From: Acinetobacter sp. C32I
Lineage (GTDB): Bacteria > Pseudomonadota > Gammaproteobacteria > Pseudomonadales > Moraxellaceae
Direction: 5' to 3'
Length of the DNA stretch: 64,000 nt
NCBI RefSeq assembly: GCF_023702715.1
Contig: NZ_CP098480.1
Span: 3,968,001-4,032,000, forward strand
Below the pieces are notes generated by a model. The model made no database searches, had not been told where the DNA came from, and worked only from the letters and a program-made list of their open reading frames with translations. A program made the translations under genes and the position numbers. Positions 1,384 through 7,281 of this stretch are shown here, piece by piece; position 1 is the first letter of the stretch, and each line of letters opens with the position of its first letter.

Positions 1384-1860
1384 TTAAATATATTCCACAC
1401 TTACGATTTCGTATTCAACTTCACCTTGTGGTGTTTGAATTTTTGCTTCGTCGCCTTCATTTTTACCTAAAAGACCACGTGCAATCGGTGAGTTCACTGA
1501 GATTTTATTGATTTTAAAATCTGCTTCATCATCACCGACGATTTTATAAGTCTTACGTTCTTCGGTATCAAGATTTTCAATCGTTACAGTCACGCCAAAG
1601 ACAACACGGCCATTTTGCTCAAGTGTTTTGACATCAATTTCTTGTACTGCGCCCAGTTTACCTTCGATATCCTGAATACGACCTTCGCAGAAACCTTGCT
1701 GTTCACGCGCAGCATGATATTCAGCATTTTCCTTTAAATCACCGTGTTCACGAGCTTCAGCAATCGCTTGGATAATACGTGGGCGATCCACTGTCTTGAG
1801 CTGTTGTAATTCTTTCTCTAAGGCAACCTTGCCTTCGGGAGTCATAGGATAACGTTGCAT
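1384..1860 (-). CDS. greA: Transcription elongation factor GreA
   Basis: GreA binds the RNA polymerase secondary channel and stimulates cleavage of backtracked transcripts. The 158-aa length is canonical. Seen: an N-terminal coiled coil (about residues 1-75) with MTPEG near the start, and the acidic tip region [20 protein letters not shown] holding the Asp/Glu pair needed for cleavage. The C-terminal FKBP-like domain includes [16 protein letters not shown]. The gene lies 92 bp downstream of carB on the same strand, with the carB terminator in the gap. That gives the carA-carB-greA order known from pseudomonads. greB is also present in this window at 34.2 kb. Confidence 0.97.
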
Positions 1861-1952: not shown

Positions 1953-4900
1953 TTAACCTACAGTTTGTAAATCTTGCAAGCGGTATACATCCATTGGCAA
2001 TTTCACAGCAAATGCTTGGCAAACTGCTTCTGCACCGTTAATCGTGGTGGTGTAATACACCTTGCCTTGGAGGGCAGCACGACGAATCATGGCAGAGTCA
2101 TATTGAGCTTGTTTGCCTTCAGTTGTGTTGACAATAAGATGAATTTCACCATTTTTCAAGCGGTCAACAATATGTGGGCGACCTTCGGTCACTTTATTGA
2201 CTGCTTCACATTCAATACCTGCTTCTTTTAGTACGCGATGTGTACCGTTGGTCGCAACAAGTTTGAAGCCATACTCGATCAACTGTTTCGCGATGTTGGC
2301 AATGTATTTTTTATCTGATTCACGAACCGATAAGAATGCATGCTTCACTTCACCTTCAGTTGGTAAGCCTGGTAAACGTTCATTTGAACCAAGCACTGCT
2401 TTATAGAATGCTTCGCCGAATGTTTTACCAACGCCCATCACTTCACCTGTAGATTTCATCTCAGGCCCAAGCATTGGGTCTACACCAGGGAATTTAGCGA
2501 ATGGGAATACTGCTTCTTTAACCGCAAAATGTGTTGGAATGATTTCTTGAGTGAAACCTTGTGATTCCAACGATTGGCCCGCCATACAACGTGCCGCAAC
2601 TTTTGCTAAAGAGTCACCAATACACTTCGATACGAAAGGAACGGTACGTGATGCACGTGGGTTCACTTCAAGTACATAAATGTCGTTGCCTTTAACAGCA
2701 AACTGAACGTTCATCAAACCGATTACGCCAAGTTCTTTTGCCATCGCAACAGTTTGACGACGCATTTCATCCTGTACTTCTTGAGAAAGCGAGTACGGAG
2801 GAATCGAACATGCTGAGTCACCTGAGTGAATACCAGCTTGTTCAATGTGCTGCATGATACCGCCGATCACAACGTCTTTACCGTCAGATACGCAGTCCAC
2901 GTCAACTTCAGTTGCATCGTCAAGGAAACGGTCAAGCAGGACTGGGGCTTCATTCGATGCTTGTACGGCTTCGCGAAGGTAACGTTTAAGTTCTTCTTCG
3001 TTGTACACGATTTCCATTGCACGACCACCCAATACATAAGATGGACGAACAACCAGTGGATAGCCCACTTTAGCCGCTTCTGAAATACCTTCTTCAGCAG
3101 ACTTTACGATGCTGTTGTTTGGTTGACGAAGCTGTAGACGTTGGATCATTTGCTGGAAACGTTCACGGTCTTCTGCACGGTCAATTGCATCAGGAGATGT
3201 ACCAATGATAGGGGTACCTGCTTCTTCCAAAGCACGTGCCAATTTCAAAGGTGTTTGACCACCGTACTGTACGATCACGCCTTTAGGCTTCTCGGTACGT
3301 ACGATTTCAAGTACATCTTCAAGTGTTACTGGCTCGAAGTATAAACGGTCAGATGTGTCATAGTCGGTTGAAACCGTTTCAGGGTTACAGTTCACCATGA
3401 TGGTTTCATAGCCGTCTTCACGCATTGCAAGCGCAGCGTGTACACAGCAGTAGTCAAACTCGATCCCTTGACCAATACGGTTTGGACCACCACCAATGAC
3501 CATGATCTTGTCACGGTTTGATGGATTTGCTTCACATTCTTCATCGTAAGTTGAATACATGTAAGCAGTACCCGATTCAAACTCGGCTGCACAGGTATCA
3601 ACACGTTTATAAACTGGATATACACCCAAGTTCCAACGATGTTTACGGAATTGTTTTTGTGAAATACCCATTAAGTTGGCAATACGCAGGTCAGATAAAC
3701 CTTTGCGCTTGAACGAACGGATATTGTCAGCATTCAAATCACCGAAGCCTAAAGTTTTCACTTGTGCTTCAGTTTTAATGATGTCTTCGATCTGGATCAA
3801 GAACCAACGGTCGATTTTGGTTGCTTCAAATACGTCATCTAAAGAGAAACCGTGGCGGAATGCATCAGCAACGTACCAAATACGCTCTGGGCCAGGAACT
3901 TTAAGCTCTTTTAAGATGATGTCTTTGGCATTGGCTGTACCAGCTTCAACTTTTTCATCAAAGCCACATACACCCACTTCAAGACCACGAAGTGCTTTTT
4001 GTACAGATTCTTGGAAGTTACGGCCAATCGCCATGACTTCACCCACAGATTTCATCTGAGTTGTTAATACAGGCTCAGCTTGTGGGAATTTTTCGAAGTT
4101 AAAGCGAGGAATCTTGGTCACAACATAGTCAATCGACGGTTCGAAAGATGCTGGAGTTACGCCGCCAGTGATGTCATTTTTCAATTCATCAAGGGTATAA
4201 CCGACCGCAAGTTTCGCTGCGATTTTCGCAATTGGGAAACCTGTTGCTTTAGATGCAAGTGCAGATGAACGTGATACACGTGGGTTCATCTCGATCACAA
4301 CCATACGACCGTCTTTCGGGTTAATACCGAATTGAACGTTCGAACCACCAGTCTCTACACCGATTTCACGAAGAACTGCAACAGAGGCATTACGCATCAA
4401 TTGATATTCTTTGTCAGTCAATGTTTGAGCAGGTGCAACCGTGATTGAGTCACCTGTATGTACGCCCATTGGGTCGAAGTTTTCGATTGCACAGACGATG
4501 ATACAGTTGTCGTTTTTGTCACGAACAACTTCCATCTCGTATTCTTTCCAACCAATCAATGATTCATCAATCAATAATTGGTGAGTCGGAGAGAGGTCGA
4601 AACCACGTTCACAGATTTCAAGGAATTCTTCGCGGTTATAAGCGATACCACCACCAGAACCACCCATCGTGAATGATGGACGGATGATGACTGGGAAACC
4701 GAAGCCCGCTTGGATCGCCAAAGCTTCTTCCATTGTTTCAGCAATAGCAGCTTTTGGACATTCCAAACCAATTTTACGCATTGCGATATCAAACAGTTTA
4801 CGGTCTTCTGCTTTTTCAATCGCTTCTTTTGATGCGCCAATCAGTTCTACATTATATTTTTCAAGAACGCCGTGCTCGTCTAAGGCAAGGGCACAGTTCA

Positions 4901-5186
4901 ATGCAGTTTGACCACCCATAGTTGGAAGGACTGCATCTGGACGCTCTTTTTCAATGATTTGTGCAACTGTCTGCCAAGTGATTGGCTCAATATAGGTTGC
5001 ATCCGCCATTGCAGGGTCGGTCATGATGGTCGCTGGGTTAGAGTTCACCAAAATAACGCGGTAACCTTCTTCACGAAGCGCTTTACATGCTTGCGCACCT
5101 GAATAGTCAAACTCACAGGCCTGACCAATGACAATAGGACCAGCACCAATAATTAAGATGCTTTTAATATCCGTACGTTTAGGCAT
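1953..5186 (-). CDS. carB: Carbamoyl-phosphate synthase large subunit
   Basis: The 1077-aa synthetase subunit uses two ATP and bicarbonate, with ammonia channelled from CarA, to make carbamoyl phosphate for pyrimidine and arginine synthesis. Seen: two homologous ATP-grasp halves. The first opens [23 protein letters not shown] and the second [22 protein letters not shown] near residue 560. Both halves carry the glycine-rich loop regions and the [18 protein letters not shown] and [15 protein letters not shown] metal-binding motifs. The C-terminal MGS-like allosteric domain begins around residue 940 ([21 protein letters not shown]). Length equals the usual 1070-1080. It follows carA by 14 bp, so the two are an operon, and expression is probably set by the carA leader. 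All frames inside this gene on other strands are shadows. Confidence 0.98.
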
Positions 5187-5200
5187 TATTCGCTCCTTAA

Positions 5201-6340
5201 TTACTTCTTAGCGGCTTCAATAAGTTCGATGAAATGATCGAACAATGGAGCACAGTCATGTGGACCCGGGCTAGCTTCAGGGTGACCTTGGAAGCTGAAT
5301 GCTGGTTTATCCGTACGATGGATACCTTGGTTTGTACCGTCAAACAGTGAACGATGTGTCACTTTTAAGTTTGCAGGTAAGGTACTTTCATCGACAGCAA
5401 AGCCGTGGTTTTGAGAAGTAATCATCACTGTACCATTCTCAAGATTTTGTACAGGATGGTTGGCGCCGTGGTGACCGTGATTCATTTTCATGGTCTTCGC
5501 ACCTGAAGCAAGCGCTAAAATTTGATGACCTAAACAAATACCAAATACTGGCAGTGTTGTGGTTTCAACAATGGTTTTCACTGCTTCAATCGCATAGTCA
5601 CATGCTGCTGGGTCACCAGGACCATTTGACAAGAACACACCATCTGGATTCAATGCGAGCACTTTTTCAGCAGGGGTTTGCGCAGGAACAACTGTTAATT
5701 TACAACCACGGTCTGCGAGCATACGTAAGATGTTGGTTTTGACACCATAATCGTATGCAACAACATGAAATTTAAATTCTGGTTGAGTGAAGCCCTGACC
5801 TAAAGTCCAAGAACCTTCAGTCCATTCGAAACCTTCTGGATCACAGCATTCTTTTGCAAGATCTAAACCGTTCAAACCGCCGAATGCACGTGCCTTGGCA
5901 ATTGCTTCTTCTTCTGTAATATTTTCGCCAGCAAGGATGCAACCATTTTGTGCACCTTTGTCACGTAAAATACGTGTCAATTTACGTGTATCAATATCAG
6001 CGATTGCAACAACATTATGTTGTTCCAAGTATTCACTGAGTGATTGTTCAGCACGGAAATTACTGTGTAATAAAGGAAGATCACGAATAATTAAACCATT
6101 CGCCCATACTTTATGGATGCGACCTGATTCAACGTCTTCACTATTACAGCCAGTATTTCCAATATGAGGATAAGTCAACGTCACAATTTGTTGTGCGTAG
6201 CTTGGGTCAGTCAAAATTTCTTGATAACCAGTCATGGCTGTATTAAAAACGACTTCACCAGTCGTACTACCCGATGCACCGATAGACGTTCCTTTAAAGA
6301 TCGTTCCATCTGCGAGGGCTAAAATGGCGGGGGTGCTCAA
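5201..6340 (-). CDS. carA: Carbamoyl-phosphate synthase small (glutaminase) subunit, TTG start
   Basis: This subunit hydrolyses glutamine and passes ammonia to CarB. The 379-aa product has the CarA N-terminal domain ([31 protein letters not shown] region) and a class I glutamine amidotransferase domain. The nucleophile is Cys269 in FGICLGHQ, and the His/Glu of the triad are in [12 protein letters not shown]. The start codon is TTG at 6340-6338, preceded by AGGAG at 6349-6353; no ATG offers a better fit with the conserved N-terminus. The 120-nt leader upstream is unusual (separate entry). One reading frame of that leader ends in a TGA that overlaps this TTG as TTGA, an arrangement typical of translational coupling. 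Confidence 0.97.
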
Positions 6341-6379
6341 ACCAAAGCTCCTGAACTAAGACCACAAAAATAGGGCTGT

Positions 6380-6452
6380 AAAAAAGCGAGTAGACATAAA
6401 AAAAGGCAGGCTGTCTTAAAAAAACATGCCCCTCCTTCCAGTCTGCTCGCTT
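6380..6452 (-). promoter_or_regulatory. carA leader: candidate terminator/attenuator with a three-codon ORF
   Basis: Read on the minus strand, arms at 6441-6452 and 6384-6395 pair over 12 bp (one G-U) and are followed by six T residues (6385-6380). Inside, a near-perfect Shine-Dalgarno AAGGAGG (6437-6431) precedes ATG TTT TTT TAA (6427-6416), encoding Met-Phe-Phe. CCTGCCTT (6410-6403) can pair with that AAGGAGG with one bulged G. The ATG is followed by a run of seven T, and a second run of seven T lies at 6404-6398. A ribosome on the mini-ORF would block both stems. The arrangement resembles translation-coupled attenuation, as known for E. coli pyrBI. The regulatory signal here is inferred, with UTP or pyrimidine level the obvious candidate. 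Confidence 0.6.
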
Positions 6453-6467
6453 GTAACTTAACAGCGC

Positions 6468-6496
6468 ATTATACGCATGAGTGCGTGAAAAGTCTA
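6468..6496 (-). promoter_or_regulatory. Sigma70-type promoter of carAB
   Basis: Minus-strand -35 TAGACT (6496-6491), exactly 17-bp spacer, consensus -10 TATAAT (6473-6468). Predicted transcription start is near 6461, giving a leader of about 120 nt before the carA TTG. Confidence 0.75.
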
Positions 6497-6699
6497 TGTG
6501 TTTTATTTATTAAAGTCAGAATTTCCCAATTTCTTTTCTAAGCAGCAGTACAGCAGTGTCTATTGCAAAATCAATCATCCTTCTATCGATATCATGAGAT
6601 ATTATGCAAATTGTTAGACAATTTTTTTTATGTTTGGGAAGTGAGCGTTTTATCTTATATCTAGCCAAAAAATCAACAATCAATAAGAGGGTAATCAAC

Positions 6700-7281
6700 A
6701 TGGCTGCGAATCAAACAACACCTGCTGCAACTGCTGAAGAAGTGAAAGAAGCTGTAGTGGAAAAAGCGACAAAAGCAAAAGACACTGTTGCTGAAAAGAC
6801 TGCTGAAGTCAAAGAAGCCGTTGCCGAGAAAACTGCAAAAGCGAAAGAAGTAGTAGCAGAAAAAACAGCAAAAGCAAAAGAAGTGATTGCTGAAACTCAA
6901 GAGCAAGCAAAAGAAGTGATTGCTGAGACTCAGGGTCAAGTTAAAGAAGCACTTGCTGAAACTCAAGAGAAAATTGAGACCGAAGCGAAAGAATTGAACC
7001 AGAACATTCAAAATCAGCTCACTCAAATCAAGCAAGATCTGTTAGAGCGTATTGAGGTGATTAAAACTCAACTTAATTCATCTCAAGGTAACCTTGTTGA
7101 ATTGAAAAATGCATTGAAAACCGAATTAAATGCATTGATTGAAGACCTAACTAAAGTCAGCAAAGAACTGAAAGATGACATTAGCCAGATTTCAGTGAAG
7201 CATAAAGATACTTTAGTGGGTAGCTTTAAGCGTACCAAAGAGCAAGCCGTTGAAGCTTGGAACAAAGTGCGTGCAAGTTAA
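6700..7281 (+). CDS. LEA-like protein with tandem 11-residue repeats
   Basis: A 193-aa, highly charged, Ala/Glu/Lys-rich protein with no signal peptide and no membrane helix. Residues 21-97 are seven consecutive 11-mers. The first is EKATKAKDTVA, followed by variants such as EKTAEVKEAVA, EKTAKAKEVVA, EKTAKAKEVIA, ETQEQAKEVIA and ETQGQVKEALA. This period and composition match group 3 LEA (LEA_4) and apolipoprotein-like amphipathic helices. Residues 98-193 form a less regular, probably coiled-coil helix. I start at ATG 6700 after AGAGGG; the longer open frame from 6604 has no support. Known LEA proteins protect against drying; a desiccation or membrane-stress role here is an inference. It lies between carA and a DOMON-like gene and ends in a strong terminator. 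Confidence 0.7.
   Translation: MAANQTTPAATAEEVKEAVVEKATKAKDTVAEKTAEVKEAVAEKTAKAKEVVAEKTAKAKEVIAETQEQAKEVIAETQGQVKEALAETQEKIETEAKELNQNIQNQLTQIKQDLLERIEVIKTQLNSSQGNLVELKNALKTELNALIEDLTKVSKELKDDISQISVKHKDTLVGSFKRTKEQAVEAWNKVRAS

Follow-up and report, generated by a model that had tools for sequence, protein, structure and literature searches.

The leader of carAB in Acinetobacter is predicted to fold into one long hairpin followed by a T6 tail, which is very probably a transcription attenuator of the operon. The 5′ arm of the hairpin holds a Shine–Dalgarno (SD) sequence and the 3′ arm an opposing tract of U residues. The hairpin, its tail, its position and its conservation, together with the constraint on the GGAGG core and on the U-tract, are read directly from the sequences compared. 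That a ribosome at the SD acts as the antiterminator, with its timing set by UTP, is about an even chance, while the more specific proposal that the 30S subunit docks on the SD alone, without an ORF, and that the U-tract opposite the SD serves as a UTP clock, is put forward as a tentative one.

Results

The window analysed here is a 64,000-nt stretch of Acinetobacter sp. C32I (NZ_CP098480.1, positions 3,968,001-4,032,000; assembly GCF_023702715.1; GTDB Moraxellaceae, Pseudomonadales, Gammaproteobacteria), and coordinates are positions within this stretch. The genes carA, carB and greA follow one another in that order on the minus strand; the product of CarAB, carbamoyl phosphate, is required for arginine and pyrimidines alike. 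The features of the locus are as follows.

6694-7278, plus strand: divergent gene for an alanine/lysine-rich, coiled-coil-like product (weak sub-cut-off matches to apolipoprotein-like and DUF3584 models)
6491..6496, minus strand: -35 hexamer TAGACT (promoter scan)
6468..6473, minus strand: -10 hexamer TATAAT (promoter scan), with the predicted transcript start near 6461
6453..6461, minus strand: first 9 nt of the predicted leader RNA, TTAAGTTAC, conserved and unpaired (folding and relatives)
6441..6452, minus strand: 5′ arm of the outer terminator stem, AAGCGAGCAGAC (folding, relatives)
6431..6437, minus strand: Shine–Dalgarno AAGGAGG, core GGAGG, within the 5′ arm of the hairpin (relatives)
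6416..6427, minus strand: mini-ORF ATG TTT TTT TAA (MFF), not conserved (relatives)
6418..6424, minus strand: T7 run after the ATG, 4-8 long in relatives
6398..6404, minus strand: conserved U-tract in the 3′ arm, opposite the SD; U7 here, U6-8 in relatives
6384..6395, minus strand: 3′ arm of the outer terminator stem, GTCTACTCGCTT (folding, relatives)
6380..6385, minus strand: terminator tail T6, the first two T's also able to pair in the stem (relatives, coordinates)
6374..6379, minus strand: conserved ACAGCC directly 3′ of the tail (column changes 0, 1, 0, 0, 0, 4)
6341..6355, minus strand: carA ribosome-binding region TTCAGGAGCTTTGGT, almost invariant (column changes on the carA tree)
5201..6340, minus strand: carA, carbamoyl-phosphate synthase small subunit, TTG start (TIGR01368)
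1953..5186, minus strand: carB, large subunit (NF003671)
1384..1860, minus strand: greA, elongation factor, downstream of carAB (NF001264)

The carA promoter, described as good in the initial annotation, consists of TAGACT, a 17-nt spacer and TATAAT and matches the consensus at 10 of 12 positions, but since a scan of 1.2 kb gave one such site and shuffled sequences average 2.7, its score by itself is not above chance. Most columns of the -10 region are nearly unchanged among relatives and many columns upstream of TTAAGTT show 0-4 changes; the count for TTAAGTT is biased because this motif also served as an alignment anchor. Across the genus the carA ribosome-binding region with its spacer is less variable than a plain SD needs. 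As to the downstream neighbour, GreA rescues backtracked polymerase, and if greA were co-transcribed with carAB on the strand they share, an attenuator that works by pausing would act back, through GreA, on the pausing it depends on.

The predicted leader RNA starts with nine unpaired nucleotides and continues as a single hairpin of about 70 nt with the T6 tail (-32.2 kcal/mol, z -4.31; none of 200 shuffles folds as low). The outer stem AAGCGAGCAGAC/GTCTACTCGCTT, previously counted as 12 bp, has 11 pairs and one C.A mismatch, and it does end in T6. Because the neighbouring gene points away, the hairpin sits in the carA leader and not at the end of an upstream gene, and because it lies behind the carA promoter, between divergently oriented genes, it is taken for an attenuator rather than a gene-end terminator: a stem-loop with a T tail lies between the carA promoter and carA. 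A consensus terminator scan with a loop limit of 8 nt did not list this hairpin, and Rfam gave no match in the carA leader of the window. In the predicted folds AAGGAGG is masked by leader sequence, as had been suggested, but the U-tract (CCTTTTTTT, 6406-6398) is the main partner of its first bases, which do not pair with CCTGCCTT only.

A 221-nt leader query, searched against 149 sampled genomes of the genus Acinetobacter, matches 146 of them, six of these only or mainly near the carA start. From 145 usable loci and Alkanindiges, 102 distinct hairpins were taken, which represent 145 loci; L220 was dropped (contig end, carA start missing), and L224, which has no tail anchor, was placed in the tree and outside the hairpin counts. 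Most of 101 distinct leaders fold as one long hairpin with a T tail, and stem and tail are, judged by sequence, conserved throughout the genus, in agreement with the original proposal of a carAB attenuator whose stem masks an SD. The alignment of leaders across Acinetobacter bears out the conserved stem but gives neither conservation of the MFF codons nor covariation above shuffles, the latter because the outer stem hardly varies. A small-genome group (L221-L226, L294 = G193) has lost the SD and the U-tract, with a degraded terminator in L224-L226 and L294, and five distinct hairpins from about six loci (L218/L219, L221, L222, L223) keep the hairpin and T6 without GGAGG. Joint loss of SD and U-tract, compared over four independent pairs, went the same way in one and showed no difference in three, which is not significant and gives no independent evidence. 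A profile model of the leader element (R1), run on 13 Acinetobacter genomes and six genomes of other families in the order, finds one strong site per genome in 13/13 Acinetobacter, always the carA leader, and no second copy before other pyr genes in these 13; beyond this it matches there the reverse strand of the site itself (E 5e-4 and up), along with weak matches from E 0.0475. The six genomes of other families give no strong match (best E 0.18).

GGAGG is exact in 91 of the 102 distinct hairpins and at 132 of the 145 loci, and in the 91 hairpins the distance from SD to U-tract is 19-29 nt (median 23); the U6-8 length range of the U-tract was judged by eye from the leader folds. Column changes were counted on a carA tree of 80 Acinetobacter and six outgroup sequences, omitting L218, L222, L223, L225 and L226 with fewer than four of five SD matches. 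Four or more matches are present in 74 of 79 rows, and in these the columns of GGAGG change 1, 1, 2, 0 and 1 times, against 13-26 changes in the six columns preceding it and 12-20 in the four that follow; the six U-tract columns (73 rows) change 0, 0, 1, 0, 0 and 1 times. As a yardstick, 78 four-fold carA sites average 15.3 changes, with 4/78 changing 0-1 times. For the 40 rows without a start codon the corresponding figures are 0, 0, 2, 0 and 1 for GGAGG and 5-20 for its flanks, the four-fold carA sites changing 8.6 times with 5/86 never changing.

The pairing partner of GGAGG bears on how this constancy is to be read. Where a row has a start codon, the partner CCnnCC-T changes 2, 2, 4, 9, 3, 2 and 2 times and GGAGG 1, 1, 0, 0 and 0 times; in rows without one the partner CCUUCC is nearly unchanged as well (1, 1, 2, 1, 2, 1 and 0 changes), so that an alternative register GGAGGG:CCUUCC could keep both arms. 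In the predicted ensemble this register is minor, with 15-24% C pairing at G1, G2 and G4, and the first two G's of GGAGG pair mainly with U (59-87%). A change from G to A at these two positions is predicted to be about neutral for folding (-0.30/-0.20 without a start codon, -0.30/+0.02 with one), and replacing U by C at the first four U's is predicted to make the hairpin more stable, by an average of 1.4-2.3 kcal/mol. These substitutions, which folding would tolerate, are hardly seen among relatives. The last G of GGAGG is accounted for by pairing (ddG +2.5 to +2.7); by the same predictions, folding alone fails to explain the constancy of the first two G's and of the U's.

What the initial annotation described inside the leader is present in the window: a near-perfect AAGGAGG (6437-6431) ahead of ATG TTT TTT TAA (6427-6416), with T7 after the start codon (6424-6418); a 29-codon frame, opened by removing one T, whose TGA overlaps the carA TTG; a 44-codon frame, opened by adding one T, that runs past the carA start to end at 6293 within carA; and a 13-codon frame, MSTRFFTALFLWS, at 6397-6356. 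The role given to the Met-Phe-Phe mini-ORF as the translation-coupling element is not supported by comparison with relatives. Among the 91 distinct hairpins with exact GGAGG, an ATG or GTG follows the SD in 38 and is absent from 53, and in 34 of these 53 the stretch from SD to tail contains none of ATG, GTG and TTG. A count over 154 loci, eight of which may be duplicates, finds as the first start codon 2-12 nt past the best SD-like hexamer an ATG in 45, a GTG in 17 and a TTG in 5, with none in 87.

In the 38 start-bearing hairpins the ORF is 3 to 44 codons long or open, ending inside the hairpin in 13, past the terminator and before carA in 10, over the carA TTG in 8 and inside carA in 6, with a single one left open. 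Past the tail, the start frame stays open in 25 of them and the two shifted frames in 24 and 32; GGAGG and the start codon are 2 nt apart in 18 and 3 nt apart in 20, the window among the latter, a 3-nt spacing being short for good initiation; and the T-run after the start codon is 4-8 long. Frame, length, stop and T-run all vary, and no selection is visible on MFF, on T7 or on any peptide. The MFF peptide was consequently rejected as a conserved feature, as was slippage on T7, there being no conserved T-run at the slippage site and no post-start run at all where the start codon is absent. The 13-codon frame was likewise rejected, since its ATG is missing in most relatives (A at -3 in 33/73, T at -2 in 28/73). 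The start codon itself, present in 34 of 79 tree rows, has changed at least six times over the carA tree. It begins with a purine, A or G, in 32 of 32 rows of the tree, with five changes at this base, and the purine, together with the loop ORFs of related genera, suggests some use of the start codon.

In an exposure model that assumes 14 nt of RNA hidden in the polymerase, GGAGG is predicted to stay free while about 22 nt (15-28) are transcribed, of which half are U; it becomes buried once more when the polymerase is a few nucleotides beyond the U-tract. For the leader of the window itself, modelled SD accessibility during this exposure is partial (0.6-0.9). The modelled exposure looks like that expected if ribosome docking and hairpin closure competed in a race timed by UTP.

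Discussion

The proposed mechanism places such a race at the SD. A polymerase starting near 6461 would soon make the long hairpin and T6, so ending transcription in vivo before carA. GGAGG would emerge from the polymerase while the partner U-tract is still unavailable, and a ribosome (30S subunit) docked at GGAGG would block pairing of the 5′ arm and give read-through into carA. Synthesis of the U-tract would fall inside this short docking window: with scarce UTP the polymerase would dwell at the U-tract, docking would win and carAB would be made, and with plentiful UTP the hairpin would win and transcription would terminate. The earlier suggestion of UTP-sensitive pausing or slippage is thus retained in its first part, the conserved U-runs being able in principle to sense UTP, and abandoned for slippage on the variable T-run. 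Docking and not a specific peptide would decide the outcome, and where an ATG or GTG is present the ribosome may also start a short, irrelevant ORF. Binding of the SD by a 30S subunit without a start codon, and so close to the polymerase, is putative here. Repression of a terminator by ribosomes near it has been measured (PMC4824070), and pyrBI read-through is reported to need tight coupling over pyrL (PMC5021804).

Were docking on the SD alone to hold, the coupling of attenuation to translation would, in about half of the genus, do without translation itself. If start-codon-free docking prevents termination, the input to the sensor would be the assembly of an initiation complex and not a peptide, and a leader ORF would be dispensable. 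Natural variants with ATG, with GTG or with no start codon exist in the genus on nearly the same hairpin, which makes what the ribosome must do to block the terminator directly testable. In the open-licence literature we found no report of pyrimidine sensing at carAB in Acinetobacter or of its carA leader.

In a pyrBI-type arrangement the terminator would be prevented by a ribosome translating a leader ORF (MFF, or what slippage makes of it), coupled to polymerase pausing at the U's. The U-rich tract before the terminator end that belongs to this type is conserved here as U6-8. The SD followed by ATG or GTG plus TTTT in 38 of the 91 SD-bearing hairpins, the uniform purine at the start codon, the eight ORFs that end over the carA TTG and the leader ORFs in the terminator loop of Moraxella/Psychrobacter-like loci all argue for it. 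It is nevertheless unlikely given the 53 hairpins without a start codon, 34 of them lacking even a TTG up to the tail, a start frame no more open than its neighbours, a spacing of 2-3 nt, and the variation in frame, length, stop and T-run; in the window the ORF stops after three codons, before the 3′ arm, instead of reaching into the terminator. The GGA in the conserved core, being the core motif of CsrA, would fit a protein reader such as CsrA, and the possible GGAGGG:CCUUCC helix, with both arms conserved in the no-start group, would fit inner sequences that serve the hairpin alone, the U's being filler and antitermination, if any, being left to an RNA-binding protein. Such a reading is quite unlikely when the ensemble pairs the first two G's mostly with U, when the partner varies and GGAGG does not in rows with a start codon, and when the conserved core is exactly the anti-SD complement. 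Attenuation by PyrR also appears unlikely (best match in the genome of the window 32 bits against a cut-off of 138 bits), and Rfam gave no match to a PyrR-binding RNA in the window leader or in the A. ursingii locus (L001).

The main product of the leader might instead be a short trans-acting 5′-UTR RNA whose 3′ end is the terminator, on the pattern proposed for P32 in Pseudomonas syringae, a carA 5′-UTR RNA with a mapped 3′ end according to a section of PMC4997734. The unpaired 5′ end TTAAGTT, which hardly changes by a count biased through anchoring, would agree with this; such an RNA, compatible with attenuation, accounts for neither GGAGG nor the U-tract and is very unlikely to be the main product. 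A constitutive partial terminator or an mRNA-stabilising hairpin without regulation is most improbable in view of the near-invariance of GGAGG and U-tract and of the role in pyrimidine control ascribed to the P. aeruginosa stem-loop in the same section.

Within the Moraxellaceae, the carA leaders of Moraxella/Psychrobacter-like loci share the position and the outer stem AAGCGAG...CTCGCTTTTTT, and the terminator is found in 24 of 29 rows of the family set (L307, mis-anchored, left out). In other members of the family the loop of this terminator contains start codons or short ORFs: those of Moraxella/Psychrobacter-like loci have 13-20 codons and stop 7-24 nt before the tail, whereas Acinetobacter has the SD, mostly without such an ORF. 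In Alkanindiges-like loci (L011, L295-L298) the frame that begins at a GTG of the hairpin continues in phase into carA, so that an N-terminally extended CarA is possible.

Beyond the family, a CGGG/CGAG-type terminator precedes carA in 36 of 72 other loci (script and reading of its output), among them 8/8 Pseudomonas, 6/6 Halomonadaceae and 4/4 Psychrobacter. Rfam family P31 (RF01676) matches Pseudomonas carA leaders on the opposite strand, at 1420-1501 of L065 and 1429-1501 of L070 (107 and 56.5 bits, against 27.5 and 28.5 bits on the carA strand), and may represent, on the wrong strand, the leader RNA of carA called P32 in PMC4997734. The kind of element described here is already known, since the P. 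aeruginosa carAB leader stem-loop is reported, in the portion of that article concerned with it, to be needed for the pyrimidine and not the arginine response and to be associated with a leader peptide; for P. syringae the same portion records no leader start codon and a short RNA, P32, from the carA 5′ UTR. By sequence the Acinetobacter leader is a variant of this Pseudomonas-type carAB attenuator, with a single promoter, a stem-loop before carA, a TTG-start carA in most loci, a start codon in some species only (in Pseudomonas, absent from P. syringae by that account) and, at the same position, a GCGRG...CYCGCTTTTTT stem and T tail similar to that of 8/8 Pseudomonas loci, a likeness too short to prove homology. 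The Pseudomonas hairpins differ: they are short and perfectly paired, and they lack both an AGGAGG in the arm and an opposing U-tract.

Two systems of E. coli offer the remaining parallels. The predicted carA leader resembles that of pyrBI (pyrL) in its leader terminator and, as proposed, in a U-rich stretch as a UTP-sensitive pause and a ribosome close behind the polymerase that prevents termination; pyrL is a 135-bp leader gene that contains the terminator, whereas Acinetobacter has no conserved ORF and its SD lies inside the terminator stem. Reiterative transcription at carAB P1 of E. coli concerns the same genes and the same signal, UTP, and acts, according to the relevant part of PMC6245113, on GUUU at the transcript start, whereas in Acinetobacter the predicted start is TTAAG, and the T7 run lies within the transcript and is not conserved.
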